A stretch of 47,177 nucleotides of DNA from an uncultured Eubacteriales bacterium (lineage in GTDB: Bacteria; Bacillota; Clostridia; Christensenellales; Aristaeellaceae). Position 1 is the stretch's first letter. Every line of letters begins with the position of its first letter. A program made the translations under genes and the position numbers. The DNA lies in contig CADBVG010000035.1 of the NCBI GenBank assembly GCA_902798105.1, positions 1 to 47,177 of the forward strand, read 5' to 3'. Shown here in pieces: positions 2,548-47,177 of this stretch. The notes under the pieces were generated by a model, which was given only the letters and a program-made list of their open reading frames with translations, made no database searches and had not been told where the DNA came from.

Positions 2548-3031
2548 GGCGTTACCTCCTGTGTCTTATGACCCTATTATAACATAAATATCGGCTTCGG
2601 AGAAGGGGGAAGAGCCTAATCCCCGGAATATTCTCCGGCGGCGGGACGTCGGGATATTTCGCCAAAATACGACAGCGATGTGCGGGAAATATAACGGCAG
2701 GGTGATTTGTTTCGATATACAGATTAACAGACCGATGTCTTTTAACCGGAAACGGACAGGCCGCTGGGTCGGAGTACACGATATGTATCGACCCGTCGGC
2801 GTGGAACCGGGAAAACGGGCGACTGCCGATTGTTAAGAAGACCGGAGTCGTTTGTTAATTGCTGGCCGAGACAGCGCGTATAGGGATTATGACAGCAATG
2901 TGACGCCTTGAAATCGGGTGATTCGACGTCGCCCACGGGTATACAGCGGCGAAAAGCAAACCCCGGCATATCAATAATACAGACCGAAGTCTGTATCGCA
3001 AAACGGTGGATTTAATTGTCAGGCTATCGGA

Positions 3032-3057
3032 AAAAGGCGTATTTTCGCCCTTTTTCG
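3032..3057. terminator. Bidirectional terminator-like hairpin
   Basis: A short stem pairs AAAAAGGCG with CGCCCTTTTT around an ATTTT loop. It has an A-run on one side and a T-run on the other, so it could stop transcription in either direction. No annotated gene ends directly at it on the plus strand, which hints at an unannotated transcript in the preceding gap. Confidence 0.5.
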
Positions 3058-3104
3058 GGGAGCTGATTTTCCGGGCTTCCATCGCCTGCATTGGACTGCG
3101 TTAT

Positions 3105-3225
3105 GTATGGCGGCAGGTAGCCGCCGCCACAGGGGTGCGGCGGTTTGCGCGGCGGCAGGTTGCCGCCGTTATGTGGGCGCGGCATTTGTGTGTAGCGGCG
3201 GCCCCTGGGCCGCCACAGTACATTT
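3105..3225. repeat. Cluster of REP-like GC-rich palindromes
   Basis: Three adjacent imperfect palindromes built from GGCGGC.GCCGCC, ending in a GTAGCGGCGGCCCC-TGGGCCGCCACA unit. Related units lie at 3815-3970, 4815-4855, 36565-36630 and 44800-44829, always between genes. Confidence 0.65.
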
Positions 3226-8502: not shown

Positions 8503-9570
8503 ATGCGCGTAGTCGTGGGTATGTCCGGCGGCGTGGACAGTTCGGTTGCCGCGCTGCTGATGAAGCGCGCCGGTCACGAGGTGATCGGCGTGTTTATGAA
8601 AAACTGGGAGGAAAAGGACGAAAACGGCGTCTGCACCAGCGAACGGGACTGGGCAGACGTCCGTTCGGTGTGCGAGGCGCTGGATATCCCCTACTATTCG
8701 GTGAACTTCGCCAAACAGTACCGGGAGCGGGTATTCGAGCACTTCCTGTCGGAATACCGCAAGGGCCGCACCCCCAACCCGGACGTGCTGTGCAATCGTG
8801 AGATCAAGTTCAACGTGTTCCTGGATTTCGCCGAGCAGCTGGGGGCGGAGAAGCTGGTCACCGGCCACTTTGCCAACATCGACTGTGTGGACGGCGAATA
8901 CCGGCTGCTGCGCGCGGCGGACGAGAACAAGGACCAGACCTATTTTTTGTACATGCTGGGCCAGCGGGCGCTTTCAAAGGCGCTGTTCCCGGTGGGGAAT
9001 CTGACCAAGGCTGAAATCCGGGAAATTGCCCGGGACGCGGGGCTGCCCGTCAGCGAAAAGAAGGATTCCACCGGCGTGTGCTTTATCGGCGAGCGCAACT
9101 TCAAGCAGTTCCTGTCCGGCTTCCTGCCGGCCCAGCCGGGGGACATGGTCACCCCCGACGGTCGGGTGGTGGGCCGCCACGACGGGCTGATGTACTACAC
9201 CCTCGGCCAGCGCCGGGGCCTGGGCATCGGCGGCGGTGGCAACGGCCAGCGCTGGTTCGTGCTGGGCAAGGACCTGGAGCGCAACCGGTTGATCGTCAGC
9301 CAGGGCGAGGACGACGCCCTGTTCAGCCGCAGCGCCACAGGTTCGGAGCTGACGTGGCTGGCGCAGCGCCCGCCGGTGGCCGATGGCGAGCCCCTGGACT
9401 GCCAGGTGCGGCTGCGCCATCGCCAGCCGTTGCAGGATTGCCGCCTGACGCTGTCAAACGGGAAGGCACACATGGCCTTCGCCACGCCCCAGCGGGCGGT
9501 CACCCCGGGCCAGTCGGCGGTGTTCTACCAGGGCCAGGTCTGCCTGGGCGGCGCGATTGTGGACGGATAA
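8503..9570 (+). CDS. mnmA: tRNA-specific 2-thiouridylase MnmA
   Basis: Adenylates and thiolates U34 of Lys, Glu and Gln tRNAs using sulfur relayed from a cysteine desulfurase. The 355-residue protein has the PP-loop SGGVDSS (residues 8-14), the catalytic Cys97 in DVLCNREIKF, and the persulfide-forming Cys193 in GVCFIGER. The tRNA-binding QTYFL segment lies near 145 and the C-terminal beta domain starts near 210. AAGGAGG at 8491-8497 precedes the ATG. It is directly downstream of composite repeat copy 1, whose last hairpin ends 4 bases before the ribosome binding site, so the repeat sits in its leader. No cysteine desulfurase gene is adjacent. Confidence 0.96.
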   Translation: MRVVVGMSGGVDSSVAALLMKRAGHEVIGVFMKNWEEKDENGVCTSERDWADVRSVCEALDIPYYSVNFAKQYRERVFEHFLSEYRKGRTPNPDVLCNREIKFNVFLDFAEQLGAEKLVTGHFANIDCVDGEYRLLRAADENKDQTYFLYMLGQRALSKALFPVGNLTKAEIREIARDAGLPVSEKKDSTGVCFIGERNFKQFLSGFLPAQPGDMVTPDGRVVGRHDGLMYYTLGQRRGLGIGGGGNGQRWFVLGKDLERNRLIVSQGEDDALFSRSATGSELTWLAQRPPVADGEPLDCQVRLRHRQPLQDCRLTLSNGKAHMAFATPQRAVTPGQSAVFYQGQVCLGGAIVDG

Positions 9571-9629
9571 ACCTGCGAAATCCGCGTAAGCGCCTGACGG
9601 ATAATCCGCTCGCCGGCTGACCGCCTTAA
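9571..9629. mobile_element. 5'-truncated short mobile repeat (outer copy, left part)
   Basis: This stretch matches the second half of the short repeats seen elsewhere (CCTGCGAAAT..., GCCTGACGGA..., CTCGCCGGCTGACCGCC). It starts right after the mnmA stop, so its left half is missing. It continues at 9747-9761 (TTGTGCGATATTTCC) on the far side of an inserted second copy. The join is the internal TTAA of the element's own right end. Confidence 0.7.
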
Positions 9630-9742
9630 GGAAACACCGCACAATGCTCGCGGCCCATTAGCGGGTGAATTTCAGCCGCTTGCTGCCTGCAAAAATCTCG
9701 ATGACCCGCCAGGTAACCTTCGATCGATTATGCGGTATTTCC
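9630..9742. mobile_element. Short mobile repeat (113 bp) nested in another copy
   Basis: Ends are GGAAACACCGCACAAT and ATTATGCGGTATTTCC, flanked by TTAA at 9626-9629 and 9743-9746. Sequence on both sides (9571-9629 and 9747-9761) belongs to another copy of the same family, so this one inserted into the TTAA of an older element. It is non-coding and the shortest copy in the window. Confidence 0.8.
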
Positions 9743-9792
9743 TTAATTGTGCGATATTTCCTATATTTATTCGACAAAATGCTGCAAGGACC

Positions 9793-16991: not shown

Positions 16992-17032
16992 GCCCAATCC
17001 CCCCTTTCCCCGGGGTTGAAAAAAGCCCCATA

Positions 17033-17074
17033 GAGAAAAGCAGCCAAGCTGGAGACAGCGAGGCTGCTTTGTGG
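17033..17074 (+). terminator. Terminator after htrA
   Basis: An AAAGCAGCC/GGCTGCTTT stem with a 17-18-base loop that can itself fold, located about 45 bases after the htrA stop. Confidence 0.65.
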
Positions 17075-17077
17075 TAG

Positions 17078-17200
17078 AATGAAGGGGATGAAACAATAGA
17101 CTACCAAGAGCAATTATACACCAAAGCTGTTCAGTATGCCGGGGATGAGCCGACGCTGGAAGAGTTCATTTTGTGGATAGCGGGGCATGCTCAGCGGCAT
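17078..17200 (+). pseudogene. Possible gene remnant, no start codon
   Basis: One frame without a start reads as plausible protein (YQEQLYTKAVQYAG, then DEPTLEEFILWIAGHA) until about 17180. It then continues as Arg-rich noise in the frame overlapping the methyltransferase. It is preceded by a TAG at 17075-17077. I do not recognise it. It may be the end of a lost gene fused by deletion to the methyltransferase. Confidence 0.3.
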
Positions 17201-17765
17201 GAACTCCGGACACGCGAAGCTGGCGGACTGGGGATTCACGCACCTGCCCGCCATCACGCCGTCGAACGCGGTCGACCTCGGCTGCGGCGGCGGACGCAAC
17301 GCCGGTGAGCTGCTGAAAAAGTACCCGAAGGCGCATGTGACCGCCATCGATTATTCCGACCTGTCTGTACAAAAAGCGAGGGACTACAACCAGGATATGA
17401 TCGCCGCCGGACGCTGCACAGTGCAGCAGGGCGACGTATCCAATCTGAAGCTGCCTGCCGAAGCCTTCGATCTCGCCACGGCATTTGAAACCGTCTACTT
17501 CTGGCCGGGACTGGAGAAGTGCTTTGCGCAGGTGGCAAAGGTGCTCAAACCCGGCGGATATTTCATGATCTGCAACGAATCGGACGGCACGGACGCAACC
17601 AGCCTGAAATATGAGAAGATAATCGACGGCATGAAGAACCACACCGTTGAGGAAATAGAAGCGGCGCTGAGAGCCGCCGGATTCTCCGGGGTCAAGAGCG
17701 ACCATCATCCGTCAAAGCCGTGGATCACGGTTCTTGCGAGGAAAAATGCGCTTCAGGCATCTTAG
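17187..17765 (+). CDS. Class I SAM-dependent methyltransferase, probably N-terminally shortened
   Basis: A methyltransferase of 192 residues with the SAM motif VDLGCGGGRNAGELL (residues 29-43), an acidic IDYSD after strand 2, and LKPGGYFMICNE near 119. Relatives usually have a few tens of residues before the MNxGHAKLxDWG phrase that here starts at residue 5, and a stop (TAG 17178-17180) lies just upstream in frame. The substrate is unknown; small-molecule methylation is likely. Its TAG stop lies in the 4-base duplication (TTAG) of the adjacent mobile repeat. Removing the repeat would leave the same stop. The ribosome binding site is poor, so expression is uncertain. Confidence 0.75.
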   Translation: MLSGMNSGHAKLADWGFTHLPAITPSNAVDLGCGGGRNAGELLKKYPKAHVTAIDYSDLSVQKARDYNQDMIAAGRCTVQQGDVSNLKLPAEAFDLATAFETVYFWPGLEKCFAQVAKVLKPGGYFMICNESDGTDATSLKYEKIIDGMKNHTVEEIEAALRAAGFSGVKSDHHPSKPWITVLARKNALQAS

Positions 17766-17900
17766 GGAAATACCGCACAATACGGCGGCGCATCTGGCGG
17801 TGCCTTTTCCGACATCTGCTGCTTGCAGATTTCTCGATTTACCGCCAGTAAACCTTCGAATTCACTCGCCAGTTGACCACCTTAATTGCGCGGTATTTCC
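17766..17900. mobile_element. Short mobile repeat (135 bp) with TTAG duplications
   Basis: Ends GGAAATACCGCACAAT and ATTGCGCGGTATTTCC, flanked by TTAG at 17762-17765 and 17901-17904. It is non-coding and belongs to the same subfamily as the copies at 19603 and 21465 (ACGGCGGCGCATCTGG at one end). Confidence 0.88.
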
Positions 17901-18017
17901 TTAGAAACAAGCCCTGGGTTGAGATTGGTATTAAATAGGGATTGTATAAATGCCTGGGTTTATTGTGCGGTGGCGCAGTCACCGTCTCTCTCTTCCAAAT
18001 TCAGGAAGGAGGATGGG

Positions 18018-18092
18018 GATGCGCCTGGTTTATCCCGTCTGTTGCGGAGTCGATGTACACAAGACCTTTCTCGTCGCCACAATCATTCCTCC
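18018..18092 (+). pseudogene. IS110-family transposase remnant (N-terminus only)
   Basis: The frame starting at ATG 18018 reads MRLVYPVCCGVDVHKTFLVATI, the conserved start of IS110-type transposases with the first catalytic Asp in GVDVHK. Homology stops after about 24 residues, next to the convergent sirtuin stop at 18098. GGAGGATGGGG upstream is a good ribosome binding site, and 17905-18017 is probably the left non-coding end of the same IS. The other roughly 90 percent of the element is gone. Confidence 0.75.
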
Positions 18093-18097
18093 TGTGA

Positions 18098-18868
18098 CTA
18101 TTGCTGGGAATCCACTTCCGTCAGCACTTTTCCAATGCTTTCATGAAAGACAAGATCGGCTTCTCCGTCCATCAGCGTCTTGCTCTTGTTGATGATGACG
18201 ATGTGCCCGCCGCTGAATTGACGGGCCAATCCTGCGGCGGAGCCGACCTGCAGTGAAGTGCCGCCAACGATCAGAAGGTCGGCATTGCGGATCATCTTTT
18301 GCGCCTTATCATGCGCTTCTTTCGGCAGAAACTCGCCATAGAGGGTCACGTCCGGGCGCACCATGCCGCCGCACTTCGGACAGCGTGGCTTGCCGGTGCT
18401 TTCAAAGATGAAGTCCACGCCGTATGAAGCGTTGCAGACGGTACAGTGGTTTTTCCACGTCGTCCCGTGGATCTCCTGGACGTTGACGCTCCCGGCCTTC
18501 TGGTGCAGCCCGTCGATATTCTGTGTGATGACGCCAGTCAAACGGCCTTCCTTCTCCCATTGGGCGAGGATTTTGTGCGCCGCGTTGGGTTCTACAGATC
18601 TTGCGTCCAGATGGCTGCGATAGTAATCAAAGAATACATCCGGCTCATTTCGCAGACATTCGCAGCTCAGGAGATACTCCGGTTGATAGCGGGCAAAGCG
18701 CTTCTCGGTCTTATGGTATAGACCGTCCTTACTGCGGAAATCGGGGATGCCGCTCTCCGTGGACACGCCGGCGCCGCCGAGGAAAACGGCAGAGGAGGCG
18801 CTGTTGAGCATGACCCGAAAGGCGGAGAGCCTCTGCTCATCCGTCATGCGGTTGAAAGGGTGCTTCAT
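18098..18868 (-). CDS. Zinc-ribbon sirtuin, NAD-dependent protein deacylase
   Basis: A SIR2-family enzyme that removes acyl groups from lysines using NAD+. The 256 residues contain GAGVSTESGIPDFRS (about 33-47), the catalytic QNIDGLH (about 119-125), and HGT followed by a four-Cys zinc ribbon (CTVC and CPKC). GGTSLQVGSAAGL is the NAD-binding loop near 205. It is the last gene of a minus-strand train from 22330 downward. AGGAGGGG lies about 9 bases before the ATG. It runs convergent to the IS110 remnant, with only about 5 bases between. A second, very different sirtuin lies at 32856. Confidence 0.93.
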   Translation of the reverse strand: MKHPFNRMTDEQRLSAFRVMLNSASSAVFLGGAGVSTESGIPDFRSKDGLYHKTEKRFARYQPEYLLSCECLRNEPDVFFDYYRSHLDARSVEPNAAHKILAQWEKEGRLTGVITQNIDGLHQKAGSVNVQEIHGTTWKNHCTVCNASYGVDFIFESTGKPRCPKCGGMVRPDVTLYGEFLPKEAHDKAQKMIRNADLLIVGGTSLQVGSAAGLARQFSGGHIVIINKSKTLMDGEADLVFHESIGKVLTEVDSQQ

Positions 18869-18928
18869 TTCTCTTGCCCCTCCTGCGTCAGCAGAACTGT
18901 GCGGTATTCGCGGGAATCATGGATGGTA

Positions 18929-20124
18929 TCAGCCGTTATGGGTATCGTTTGCGACCTTCACCGGCGCGCCGCCCCGCGCGCAGCTTTCCTTTGCCGCCAG
19001 GCCGATCAATACCGGCTGGAGCCCGTCGTTGACGCCCACCAGGGTTTCCCGATCGTTCAGGCAGGCATCCACAAAACTCTGCTCCTCTGCGATGTAGGCG
19101 TCGTTGTACCTTTCCAGGAAGAACCACAGGGGCTTTTCGCGGGTTACGGCGTCCGCCGTATACAGCGTCGTGTTGTTGGCGGTCTCGTTGTCCGCCGTCA
19201 CGCATCCCTTCGAGCCAAACACCTCGATCCTCTGGTCATACCCATAGACCGCCTGGCGGCTGTTGTCGATGACGCCCAGTGCCCCGTTTTCAAACCTCAG
19301 CATGATGGTGCAGGTGTCCACGTCGCCCGCTTTTCCGATCTCCGGGTCGACCAGGCACGCCCCGAAGGCGCTGACCTCCACGACCTCGCTGCCGGTCAGA
19401 TAGCGCACCATGTCGAAATCGTGGATGGCCATGTCCAGGAACAGGCCGCCCGAGGACTTGACATAGGAGAGGGGCGGGGCCTCCGGGTCGCGGCTCGTAA
19501 CCTTCACGATGTGAACGTCGCCGACGCCGCCCGCCGTCACGACCTCATGGACGCGCTTGAAATTGCGGTCAAAGCGCCGGTTGAAGCCGACCTGGTATTT
19601 AAGGAAATACCGCACAATACGGCGGCGCATCTGGCGGTGCCTTTTCCGACATCTGCTGCTTGCAGATTTCTCGATTTACCGCCAGTAAACCTTCGAAACC
19701 TTCGAAATCTGCAATTGCATCTGTCGAAATATTCACTCGCCAGCTGACCACCTTAATTGCGCGGTATTTCCTTAACGCCAGACGCCTTGACGGCTTCTAT
19801 CACGGCTTTGATCTTATCCAGATCGTGATCGATGGGCTTCTCGCAGAAAATGTGCTTGCCCGCCCTGGCAGCTTCGATGGAAATGGGAGAGTGTGTGTCC
19901 GTGGACGAGCAGATGAAGACCGCGTCGACGGCGGGGTCGGACAGGATGTCGTGATAATCACTGTAAGCTGAGATGCCAAGGGAGGCGGCGACCTCCTTGG
20001 CTGCGGGCGCATAGACGTCGGAGATGGCGACCAGCTCCGCGCCAGGGACGCGGCTTTTCAGATTATTGGCATGGAGCCTGCCGATGCGGCCCGCGCCGAT
20101 GATTCCAATCCGGAGTGCTTTCAT
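18929..20124 (-). pseudogene. Gfo/Idh/MocA-family oxidoreductase split by a mobile repeat
   Basis: An NAD(P)-dependent sugar or inositol dehydrogenase of the inositol 2-dehydrogenase type. The N-terminal part (20124 down to about 19772) has the Rossmann motif GIIGAGRIGRLH and CEKPI. The C-terminal part (19598 to 18929) has GGLFLDMAIHDFDMVRYLTG. The two are separated by the short mobile repeat at 19603-19771. Removing the repeat and one TTAA (173 bases) leaves 1023 bases, exactly 341 codons, reading SGV-K-YQVGF across the join, so the gene was intact before insertion. As it stands the N-terminal frame ends after ...GVKEIPRN. AAAGGA precedes the ATG. Confidence 0.92.
19603..19771. mobile_element. 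Short mobile repeat (169 bp) inserted in the oxidoreductase gene
   Basis: Ends GGAAATACCGCACAAT and ATTGCGCGGTATTTCC, flanked by TTAA at 19599-19602 and 19772-19775. It is non-coding. It shares nearly all its sequence with the copy at 17766-17900 plus a roughly 35-base extra internal stretch. Because the host frame is restored by precise removal, the insertion defines the element ends and the 4-base duplication. Confidence 0.95.
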
Positions 20125-20211
20125 CTTGTTGTCCTTTCGCTTATGATAGCCATGTTCTCTTTATGAATCCATTTGCGCTGGATTTGAAGATGGCCTGGCA
20201 TTCGTTGCCAC

Positions 20212-20910
20212 TCAGGCCAAAGCCAGCGTGCGTCTCACATACTCCGCCACCGCTTCGCCCAGTCTCCGGTGGTTTTCCCCGTCCAGGTGGATGCCGTCCA
20301 GCTGGCTGCTCTCACAGTATTGCCCAGCGTCCATAAAGCCGATCCCGTAGCGCTGGGCCAGCTCTTCGTACCACTTCTTCAGCTCCTTGGATTTCTTCAA
20401 TCCCACCTCGTACTCAAACACATCCCCCAGCCATGAGGTCATCAGCCCCTCGTTCATGGGCGGCGGGGAAATGAGCAGAATGTCGTAATGGGTCGCTGAA
20501 CTGTACTGCCTGTGCGTCAGCACCGTCTGCAAAAAACGTTCCATCGACCAGGCGACGTCCTGGCTGGAATAGCTGAACTTTCGCTTGAGGTCGTTCGTCC
20601 CCAGCATGATGATGAGCATATCAAACGGGTTGTGGGTTTCAAGGCATGGCCGAATATATTTGATCCCGTTCTTCCCGCCCTCCGGGATGTCGTCGGTGGC
20701 GATATTCCGACCGCCCTGGCCCTCTTCTATGACCTCATAGCCGGGACCGAGGGTGGCTTGCAGGACCCGCGGCCAGCGGCCAGGAAGACGGTGGCCGCTT
20801 ATGGCCGGGTCTGATCCCCACGTCAGGGAATCGCCGAAGCAGAGAATGCGAGGCTTCATCTCATCGGGGATGAAGGAAGGGTGGGCATTGGAGTTCTCGG
20901 TAAAGATCAT
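20212..20910 (-). CDS. SGNH/GDSL-family hydrolase (arylesterase-like)
   Basis: A cytoplasmic SGNH esterase or acyl hydrolase of 232 residues. FGDSLTWG (about 23-30) carries the catalytic Ser in block I, a Gly follows in GGRN, Asn lies in MLGTNDLK (block III), and DGIHLDGENH near the C-terminus supplies Asp and His. Start at 20910 (MIFTENSN) because AAAGGACTGACC lies just upstream; an ATG 19 codons later (MKPRILCFGD) is a second option. It begins 5 bases after the end of the preceding broken SGNH gene, so they were co-transcribed. The substrate is not known. Confidence 0.88.
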   Translation of the reverse strand: MIFTENSNAHPSFIPDEMKPRILCFGDSLTWGSDPAISGHRLPGRWPRVLQATLGPGYEVIEEGQGGRNIATDDIPEGGKNGIKYIRPCLETHNPFDMLIIMLGTNDLKRKFSYSSQDVAWSMERFLQTVLTHRQYSSATHYDILLISPPPMNEGLMTSWLGDVFEYEVGLKKSKELKKWYEELAQRYGIGFMDAGQYCESSQLDGIHLDGENHRRLGEAVAEYVRRTLALA

Positions 20911-20915
20911 AGAGG

Positions 20916-21651
20916 TCAGTCCTTTCGTTTGTTCATGTCTGCTCGAATGGTCTCCCATATCATCTTCGCCGCGAAGTCGGAACCGGCTGGGGAAGCATGT
21001 GTGCCATCCTCGGCTTACATCTCCAAGCCAGGCCAGCTCTTTATATAGTCCCACCATCCTTCTCCAACCGGGGCAAGGAGGGCGTTGATATCTGCCGCTA
21101 CTTTCTCATGCACCTCGTTCATGTGGGGCTGGAGGTGCGGTTCATCCTTCTTCGCCCAGGTTTCGTAGATTACGGGCACCGCTTCCGTTTCGCGAATCCA
21201 GGCGCCCAGGCTGTGGGCGGCGGTGAAGAACCCTTCTTCCGGACCAAAGGGGTGTGCGTGCTCCTGCAACACCACATAATCATATCCCCCATGCAGGATG
21301 TTGAAACGCGCTTCCGGATCCTGGGCGTGCTGAGACAGGAACCAGCCCGGATGGGCGAGCATGGTCACGTGGCAGGTATAACCAATATTCTCAGCACGTC
21401 GCTTGACCAGCAGTGGCATATCGTTGTAATATGTGTGGCTGTTGTCGATAAAGAGAAGGTTTAAGGAAATACCGCGCAATTAAGGTGGTCAGCTGGCGAG
21501 TGATTTTTTCGTCAGGCGCTCTTGCAGATTTTGAAGGTTTACTGGCGGTAAATCAAAACAAAAAATCTGCAAGAGATGACTGGCGGAAAAGGCACCGCCA
21601 GATGTGCCGCCGTATTGTGCGGTAGTTCCTTAAGGATCGCTTTTTTGCCAT
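20916..21651 (-). pseudogene. Second SGNH-like hydrolase gene, broken by a mobile repeat and a stop codon
   Basis: The native start is ATG 21651 (MAKKRSL), overlapping the stop of the Smr gene (TGATG) with AAGGAG upstream. After seven codons the repeat at 21465-21629 intervenes. The frame resumes as NLLFIDNSHTYYNDMPLLV, a DUF4886/SGNH-like opening. It hits an in-frame TAA after ...SWPGLEM (about 21015) and is open again as AEDGTHASPAGSDFAA to a TGA at 20916. Without the repeat and one TTAA the gene is 567 bases (189 codons). The terminal D-x-x-H block lies beyond the TAA, so the product would lack its catalytic end. Two independent lesions suggest it is a true pseudogene. Confidence 0.88.
21465..21629. 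mobile_element. Short mobile repeat (165 bp) inserted in codon 7 of the SGNH-like gene
   Basis: Ends GGAAATACCGCGCAAT and ATTGTGCGGTAGTTCC, flanked by TTAA at 21461-21464 and 21630-21633. It lies in the opposite orientation to the copies at 17766 and 19603. One base change (TATTTCC to TAGTTCC) is seen in the right end. It is non-coding. Confidence 0.92.
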
Positions 21652-21899
21652 CAGTATAGCTCCTTCAGAATAAGAATGGTCACGCCGGGATTGTCGCCGG
21701 GCTGTATCCTCAGCACTTTCTCATGATACCTGTACTCATCCTGGATCATGCTCCGCAGACTTGTGCCCCTGTGAAACCCGTGGACGAGGCGCAGCTGGTA
21801 GGTGTAAGGTCCGGCATCGCGCAATGCGCGGTCGATCCTTCGCATCGCGTCATCCCGCATCATGCCGTGGAGGTCGATGGTCACAAAGGGGTCATTCAT
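21651..21899 (-). CDS. Small Smr-domain protein
   Basis: A stand-alone Smr (MutS2 C-terminal) domain of 82 residues, a fold linked to DNA or RNA endonuclease activity. DLHGM near residue 10 and LVHGFHRGTSLRSMIQ (about 39-54, in place of the classic HGxGxGxLR) are the signatures. The start at 21899 gives GGAGG a 7-base spacing; an ATG at 21905 overlapping the upstream stop (ATGA) is also possible. The TGA stop overlaps the ATG of the broken SGNH gene. A role in translation quality control is only suggested by the family. Confidence 0.83.
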   Translation of the reverse strand: MNDPFVTIDLHGMMRDDAMRRIDRALRDAGPYTYQLRLVHGFHRGTSLRSMIQDEYRYHEKVLRIQPGDNPGVTILILKELY

Positions 21900-21901
21900 A
21901 A

Positions 21902-22330
21902 TCATTCCTCCAGCAGCTTTTTCAGTGCCTTGTTGTATTTCTTCTGCCGTTCCACGTCCCTAAGCGTGACATATGGAATCCTGCTCAGGTTGCTGTTGTC
22001 GATCAGGTCGCTGATTTTGACCTGGCGGGCGATCGGATTGGCGGCCACACGGTCGATATAATCCGGCCAAGTCTCTCCATCCCTTCTGCTGATGGCATCC
22101 ACGGCCGCGGCAGTTTCCGGACCAAACCGTTCCCTGATATCGCCGATAGTCAGAGCGGTATCTTCAACCGTATCATGCAGCCAGCCAACCACCTGGGCCT
22201 CCGGGGCGTTCAGGCGAGAGGCGACTCTCTCCGGATGGGTGATGTAGGGAAGACCGGCTTTATCGGTCTGACCCTCGTGAGCTTTTGCCGCCAGAGCCTT
22301 GGCGGTTTCGACATCTGTACTGTAGGCCAA
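21902..22330 (-). CDS. HD-domain phosphohydrolase of the RelA/SpoT-hydrolase (MESH1-like) type
   Basis: A small HD-domain protein, 142 residues. AHEGQTDKAGLPYITHPERVA (about 17-37) supplies the first His, and GWLHDTVEDT (about 49-58) the HD pair plus acidic residues. KISDLIDN near 105 is the third metal-site region, as in (p)ppGpp hydrolases. There is no synthetase or TGS domain. The start is TTG at 22330 with ACGAGGA about 8 bases before it. It is the first gene of a coupled minus-strand train that overlaps the Smr gene. Its true substrate (ppGpp or NADPH in the family) cannot be read from sequence. Confidence 0.85.
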   Translation of the reverse strand: MAYSTDVETAKALAAKAHEGQTDKAGLPYITHPERVASRLNAPEAQVVGWLHDTVEDTALTIGDIRERFGPETAAAVDAISRRDGETWPDYIDRVAANPIARQVKISDLIDNSNLSRIPYVTLRDVERQKKYNKALKKLLEE

Positions 22331-22439
22331 CTGTTTATCCTCGTCGTGTAATTATGGATTCAGTTTACCACAGGCAGTATCGCATTGCAAGATAAGGTTT
22401 TACTGGCGTTTAAACGACTCTCAGGATTGAACAGCGAAA

Positions 22440-22515
22440 GCCGTGATGCAGGTTTTTCGTTCTGGCAAGGAAACCCCGCAGGCTTGCTGGCGGCAAGTCA
22501 AGGGGGCTTGACGGG
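22440..22515. repeat. Decayed internal piece of the short mobile repeat
   Basis: GCAGGCTTGCTGGCGGCAAG followed by TCAAGGGGGCTTGACGG matches the interior of the copy at 42393-42563 and a piece at 33998-34030. No end sequences remain. It supplies the TTGACG -35 box of the following TetR gene. Confidence 0.5.
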
Positions 22516-25072: not shown

Positions 25073-25222
25073 GGAAATACCGCACAAACGGGCGGCATGT
25101 CTGACGGTGCCATTTCCGCCATGCACATTCTGCAAATTCCTTGACTTGCCGCCAGCAAGCCTGCGAAATTTGCAGGCGCGCATGACGGAAAATTCACTCG
25201 CCAGCCAACCACCCTTATTTCC
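25073..25222. mobile_element. Short mobile repeat (about 150 bp) with a damaged right end
   Basis: The left end GGAAATACCGCACAAA follows ATAA (25069-25072). It is of the second subfamily (ACGGGCGGCATGTC) shared with 42393-42563. The right end lacks about eight bases (CCCTTATTTCC instead of CTTATTATGCGGTATTTCC) and is not followed by ATAA, so the right junction was deleted or rearranged. Confidence 0.8.
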
Positions 25223-42392: not shown

Positions 42393-42563
42393 GGAAATAC
42401 CGCATAATAAGGGTGGTTGGCTGGCGAGTGAATTTTCCGTCAGGCGCGCCTGCAAATTTCGCAGGCTTGCTGGCGGCAAGTCAAGGACAAGTCAAGGAAT
42501 TTGCAGGATGTGCATGGCGGAAATGGCACCGCCAGACATGCCGCCCGTTTGTGCGGTATTTCC
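42393..42563. mobile_element. Short mobile repeat (171 bp) with ATAA duplications
   Basis: Ends GGAAATACCGCATAAT and TTTGTGCGGTATTTCC, flanked by ATAA at 42389-42392 and 42564-42567. It belongs to the second subfamily together with 25073-25222. It lies between the flavodoxin gene and the ribosome binding site of the next gene, so it now forms part of the operon's internal leader. It is non-coding. Confidence 0.93.
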
Positions 42564-47076: not shown

Positions 47077-47177
47077 GCAAATACCGCACAATACGGCGGC
47101 GCATCTGGCGGTGCCTTTTCCGACATCTGCTGCTTGCAGATTTCTCGATTTACCTCCGGGGGCTTGCCAGCCCGTTC
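47077..47177. mobile_element. Short mobile repeat, partial at the window edge
   Basis: Starts GCAAATACCGCACAAT (second base changed) and is then nearly identical to 17766-17830 of the first subfamily. After GATTTACC at about 47153 it departs from the other copies (TCCGGGGGCTTGCC). The right end lies outside the window or is lost. Confidence 0.75.

Follow-up and report, generated by a model that had tools for sequence, protein, structure and literature searches.

The short repeats of the 47,177-nucleotide window (the whole stretch of DNA that was analysed) are a MITE family. Taken as a whole, our data are best explained by MITEs that are moved by an IS5-type transposase, share a core at the tip of their hairpin and carry one-sided indels that may be traces of healed breakage; we hold this explanation to be highly probable, although no IS5 transposase was detected in the bacterium's own genome and a relative of the partner element in one sister genome has unequal flanks. 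The family is a new one of IS5 type and ordinary in kind; what is unusual is the shared tip together with the indel pattern, which is worth testing. Among the papers listed by literature searches, one of them for the sequences themselves, none could be tied to these MITEs, and this does not deny that reports exist. The copies in the window are as follows.

19603..19771, forward strand: MITE copy of type A1, 169 bp, flanked by TTAA at both ends; splits iolG and has a 9-nt duplication beside the core in the right arm.
19673..19691, forward strand: core palindrome GATTTACCGCCAGTAAACC of the 19603..19771 copy.
17766..17900, forward strand: MITE copy of type A1, 135 bp, flanked by TTAG at both ends; next to the core (17836-17854) the right arm is shortened.
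21465..21629, reverse strand: MITE copy of type A2, 165 bp, flanked by TTAA at both ends; next to the core (21536-21554) the left arm has 5 additional nt.
9630..9742, forward strand: MITE copy of a variant type, 113 bp, flanked by TTAA at both ends; inside a TTAA of an older copy.
9568..9761, forward strand: the older copy split by 9630-9742, read from the sequence as right arm and right end only, starting from the 3' half of the core.
25073..25222, forward strand: B-type copy with a degenerate right end and no visible duplication.
42393..42563, reverse strand: B-type copy, 171 bp, flanked by ATAA at both ends; its core GACTTGCCGCCAGCAAGCC spans 42464-42482.
47077..47177, forward strand: A-type copy ended by the contig end inside a core insert; insert model match at 47147-47177, minus strand.

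The original prediction had described a family of gene-free repeats with common ends and had read the duplications TTAA, TTAG, TTAA, TTAA and ATAA, which we see at 9630-9742, 17766-17900, 19603-19771, 21465-21629 and 42393-42563, respectively; no gene of their own was seen in the window's copies. Repeats are present at the loci that it listed, with the qualification that the locus at 25073 shows no duplication beside its degenerate right end and the one at 47077 runs into the contig end. Its nested pair at 9571-9761 holds for the two-ended inner copy, while the outer one has no left arm and only half its core. TTAA is present in the MITE's own right arm, and it is such a site of the older copy that the inner one occupies.

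The terminal inverted repeats are about 16 bp long (GGAAATACCGCRCAAT; the end form is also given as GGAAATACCGC). With up to 3 mismatches allowed, the window contains this end 14 times, compared with a mean of 0.58 and a maximum of 3 in 100 shuffles; one match without a partner (18896-18911, 3 mismatches) is taken as chance. The organism's own assembly (G000; 3.24 Mb in 146 contigs, 89.7% complete) yields 315 end matches (171 + 144) when up to 2 mismatches are allowed, and a reversed control pattern yields 0 + 1. From 142 of these 315 we obtained 71 distinct end-paired copies, most of them 108-213 bp long. The 4-bp flanks are identical in 62 of the 71, differing by one base in six copies and by more in three, whereas permuting the right flanks among copies 20,000 times gave a mean of 26.5 and a maximum of 38 identical pairs; among the 29 copies whose left flank is not TTAA, the flanks match in 23. 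With orientations merged, TTAA accounts for 39 of the 62 duplications, and the patterns YTAR and NTAN cover 48 and 59 of them. The target-site duplications of the paired copies are thus of constant length. The two predicted subfamilies stand, and the restriction of ATAA to one of them does not hold generally, since A-type copies occur with TTAA as well as with ATAA/TTAT flanks, and L033, of B type, is flanked by TTAA.

The copy at 19603-19771 lies in a gene for inositol-2-dehydrogenase (iolG), which it splits into two parts.

18929..19630, reverse strand: C-terminal part, TIGR04380 positions 113-326 of 330; its first codons lie in the MITE.
19753..20124, reverse strand: N-terminal part, TIGR04380 positions 2-117.

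Comparison of this one locus with two sister species gave the empty site that the original prediction had sought in relatives. In both, iolG is continuous and free of the MITE, with 90% and 94% identity on the two sides of the site in G009 and 76% and 81% in G014, and the empty site reads TCAA where the window has TTAA. MITE insertion therefore also disrupts genes, as the split iolG illustrates. The open reading frame of the C-terminal part has its ATG start inside the MITE (window 19603-19630), so the MITE might supply a restart for this half of the gene.

The interior of the MITE is a long imperfect hairpin, the tip of which is the 19-bp core GATTTACCGCCAGTAAACC or a variant of it; the core has 94 matches in G000 at up to 2 mismatches, 87 of them exact, and its control has none. 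To describe the arms on either side we counted the indels in the 55 copies of this genome that have both ends, a core and no N. Both arms are of standard length in 12 copies, the left arm is altered in 21 and the right arm in 21, none has both altered and one has a doubled core; the lack of the double-altered class gives a Fisher p of 1.2e-6. The sister genomes, with the palindromic copy L351 counted in both orientations, yield 16 unaltered, 7 left-altered, 6 right-altered and no double-altered copies, which is the same direction and is not significant (p 0.29). Next to the core, 20 of the 21 altered right arms keep 3-7 reference nucleotides, the remaining one being of B type, for which our A-type arm references are unsuited; 17 of the 21 altered left arms keep 2-9 nt (the exceptions keep 15, 20, 28 and 49), and some of the low left-arm values also reflect other subfamilies. 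Beyond the kept nucleotides, a loss or a small duplication extends outward over a variable distance. The full set of 71 end-paired copies comprises 56 that fit the core pattern, 12 with a whole or partial insert in the core loop, two with a diverged core and one (L201) that has lost it. At one orthologous site the copy in the sister genome G017 is unaltered and that in G000 has 5 additional nt beside the core; this difference fits an event after insertion, with the reservation that the two copies are of different subfamily.

The indel pattern suggests breakage of the tip followed by end joining, with a bias of short-read assembly also in play. We propose, at a confidence just short of even, that breakage near the tip and end joining left the indels as scars, a process that ceases once the arms no longer match. 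The extruded hairpin would be cut at the junction of the small tip and the long stem, the cut hairpin would be healed by end joining, and once one arm had been altered extrusion and cutting would stop. The alternative that short-read assembly produced the one-sided indels as an artefact has a lesser but real chance of being correct: copies that are identical over about 160 bp break an assembly, so that only copies interrupted near their middle would be read through, and such a filter favours changes near the middle. Several contigs do end inside MITEs, and some copies hold runs of N. However, an artefact would not predict that the core is spared (one of the 71 end-paired copies has lost it) or that no copy has both arms altered (p 1e-6); the matching flanks show that the two sides of a copy belong together, and the pattern is seen again in the sister genomes and in L285, a TACT-ended copy of G017. 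Assembly bias inflates the altered fraction, and alone it does not explain the spared core or the missing double class. If the one-sided indels hold up, these dozens of independent copies constitute a natural record of the fate of hairpin-forming repeats in a bacterium.

The core is common to MITEs of at least four end types. The other carriers have GTAGCCGCTGATT ends with YTAR flanks (read by eye), GRGYGTGTTTC ends with TA flanks, or TACTNNTCTCA ends with 3-bp TNA flanks, the flank lengths of the last two coming from a handful of copies. For two of these three end types there are IS5-family elements with similar ends, namely L123 in G004 (1,223 bp, CTAA flanks, NF033581 at 281 bits) and L126 in G006 (a single end within the contig, NF033580 at 288 bits). 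The MITE, or its interior with other ends, is present in 18 of 41 genomes, corresponding to 18 of the 25 of the genus and none of the 16 others; one matching locus comes from the record RUG340 of an uncultured Clostridiales bacterium. With its stem positions left free the core was found in 17 of the 25 genus genomes (188 times in G000), in none of the 16 other-genus genomes of the order and in none of 390 others of the class. The window also contains a one-armed relic of the TACT-ended type (window 22400-22500, reverse strand), with a core GACTTGCCGCCAGCAAGCC at 22481-22499 and a right arm but no left arm that can be recognised.

A single interior with at least four end types, three of them tied to IS5-family elements, suggests that the ends are exchangeable around a conserved tip. 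This could be taken further: the core would be a portable hairpin tip outliving the ends of its carriers, MITE lineages of the genus would have swapped terminal repeats and with them transposases, and the core edge would form a fragile joint, rejoinable and occasionally so with an arm from a different family, as in L175; we regard this extension as rather unlikely. Frequent shuffling of arms was rejected: among the 62 cores with both neighbouring arms classified, 59 have matching arms and three do not. Only one of the three is a clear chimera (L175, a left arm of the GTGTTTC-ended type and an A-type right arm, joined at the core), as the other two pair A3 with B for want of an A3 right-arm reference. 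One further copy, L030, looks mosaic by eye, with B ends and an A1 inside. These observations touch on two unsettled general questions, the origin of MITEs from insertion sequences and the conservation of parts of the MITE interior.

Pairing within the core was counted over the 180 cores that lie near a recognised MITE arm (the other 8 of the 188 being excluded, and related copies counted singly). Pair 3-17 is T-A in 126 cores, C-G in 52 and other in 2, pair 6-14 is A-T in 124, G-C in 47, C-G in 5 and other in 4, and at pair 2-18 a G-U wobble on one strand is seen in 169 of the 180; because up to 4 mismatches were allowed, the search did not force the stem pairs. The core region folds well as single-stranded DNA (z about -6). 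Such paired changes can result from selection on structure or from template switching between the arms. It is improbable, though worth weighing, that the core is retained as an RNA hairpin (GGYUURCUGGNGGYAARUC), for example as a cis-element or a small RNA; the co-variation of the stem pairs and the fact that the single mismatch is a G-U wobble on that same strand speak for such a role. Against it, paired changes are also obtainable by template switching, tandem sites divide 8 to 7 in their orientation to the neighbouring genes (n = 15, a crude test), and Rfam returned nothing above the gathering score for the window region 17000-22500 or for five long-form loci; hits to microRNA, snoRNA and sRNA families below that threshold are taken as chance. 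An orientation-dependent cis-element was rejected, as the 27 sites (15 tandem, 8 convergent and 4 divergent, with open reading frames called by a crude length rule) show no bias. Just upstream of one MITE copy, L187 has a weak match to an HDV-like ribozyme at 332-398 (RF02682, 27.2 bits against a gathering score of 44, E 0.098).

The insert carried whole or in part by 12 of the 71 copies is a multi-hairpin sequence of about 68 nt in the core loop, which starts with GGGTTCGAGCGCCCGG and ends with CCCCGGAGG. The full pattern occurs nine times in G000, seven times in G017 and has single occurrences in G002, G009 and G021. In an alignment of 16 sequences 96.9% of cells pair, and 34 cells are changed on both sides, where shuffles give 11.3 and slid controls no more than 2; further pair types are not in excess over shuffles (17 vs 17.7). 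Outside the genus, 9 of 390 other genomes have weak matches (E 2e-5 to 8e-4, a rough estimate), mainly to the middle hairpin. The middle hairpin, GAAAACAGTCC..GGACTGTTTTC followed by AGCGAG, recurs in distant relatives from other families of the class (L312-L316 and L318), and its A and T tracts make it resemble a two-way terminator. A different repeat, AAAGCCTTCCCCTT..AAGGTGG..GACGGATGAGG, was seen in several genomes (L003 at 2950-3160, L288 at 1400-1600, L120 and L126) and contains the insert of about 68 nt in two cases (L288 and L003); in L003 the first 42 bases of the insert are in tandem repeat.

One could suppose that this insert is itself a second small mobile unit, which targets the core loop and is moved by a hairpin-recognising enzyme, and we give this idea little credence. 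It would account for an insert whose place in the loop does not change between A-, GTAGCC- and TACT-ended elements (L052, L291 and L196) and also inside another repeat (L288, L003), and there is a precedent in the use of the QMITE2 palindrome as a target by IS1111, according to an excerpt of the published account (PMC10969869). However, the right junction reads AGG in 15 aligned core-borne inserts while most A cores have CGG, so one old insertion or an ancestral long form fits better, and the partial inserts show ongoing insert loss.

The original prediction had the MITEs moved by a transposase encoded elsewhere in the genome, for which the duplications, the empty site and an autonomous partner in sister genomes argue; in the window's own assembly the partner appears just as short pieces. 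We sought the partner by looking for MITE ends around PF01609 genes. The sister genome G008 has a complete element with a transposase and matching ends, of the kind that the original prediction had suggested looking for: an element of 1,129 bp (L122 1367-2495) with TTAA on both sides and ends GGAAACACCGCACAAY; the two ends, GGAAACACCGCACAAC and GGAAACACCGCACAAT, agree with the MITE at 14 and 15 of 16 bases. Its transposase of 330 aa scores 298.5 bits with NF033581 (IS5 family transposase; cut-off 140). A relative in G009 has unequal flanks (CTAA and TTAA). DNA matches to the element occur in 6 of 41 genomes, and in G000 they cover just 59 and 41 query positions. Two transposase families, PF13546 (DDE_5) and PF01609, were profiled across 25 genomes, of which 16 belong to the genus and 9 do not; PF01609 is present in 12 of them and was not found in G000 by this profile search, in an assembly that is 89.7% complete and often broken inside these repeats.

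The sister species thus hold the likely motor, an element whose ends match those of the MITE and whose flanks are TTAA, and YTAR is the target site of IS5 in the excerpted text of PMC10359306. Judged from sequence, the mover is likely an IS5-type transposase of the IS5 group. We infer that an IS5-family cut-and-paste transposase, acting in trans, would mobilise these copies; it would recognise the ends of about 16 bp, and its 4-bp YTAR-like target, mostly TTAA, would become duplicated on insertion. That the MITEs belong instead to IS701 or another family with 4-bp targets is very improbable, and IS701 was rejected as the mover: the target is indeed 4-bp and YTAR-like, but the link to IS701 came from the original prediction, PF13546 was found in none of the 25 genomes by a search that was positive in 2 of 14 control genomes, and the element with matching ends and flanks carries an IS5-family transposase.

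Comparison with known systems places the family close to IS5 of the IS5 group, with which it shares the transposase family of its partner (NF033581), the YTAR target and the 4-bp duplication; it differs in that the window MITEs carry no transposase and in that their interior, apart from the ends, is unlike the partner IS. The BrickBuilt, MITEPgRS, MITE293 and MITE700 elements of Porphyromonas gingivalis, as excerpts of their description present them (PMC4596501), are likewise high-copy, gene-free and endowed with extra internal repeats, and their ends match resident IS5-family insertion sequences. In the same excerpts their duplications are inconsistent (3 of 4 copies, with differing lengths) and different MITEs do not have their insides in common, whereas the duplications of the window family are constant and one core occurs with different ends. 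QMITE2 of Coxiella burnetii resembles the family in that, in the excerpted account (PMC10969869), many of its copies are shortened at one end and its internal palindrome is a target for another element; in the window family, by contrast, the shortening begins beside a spared core and affects one side only.
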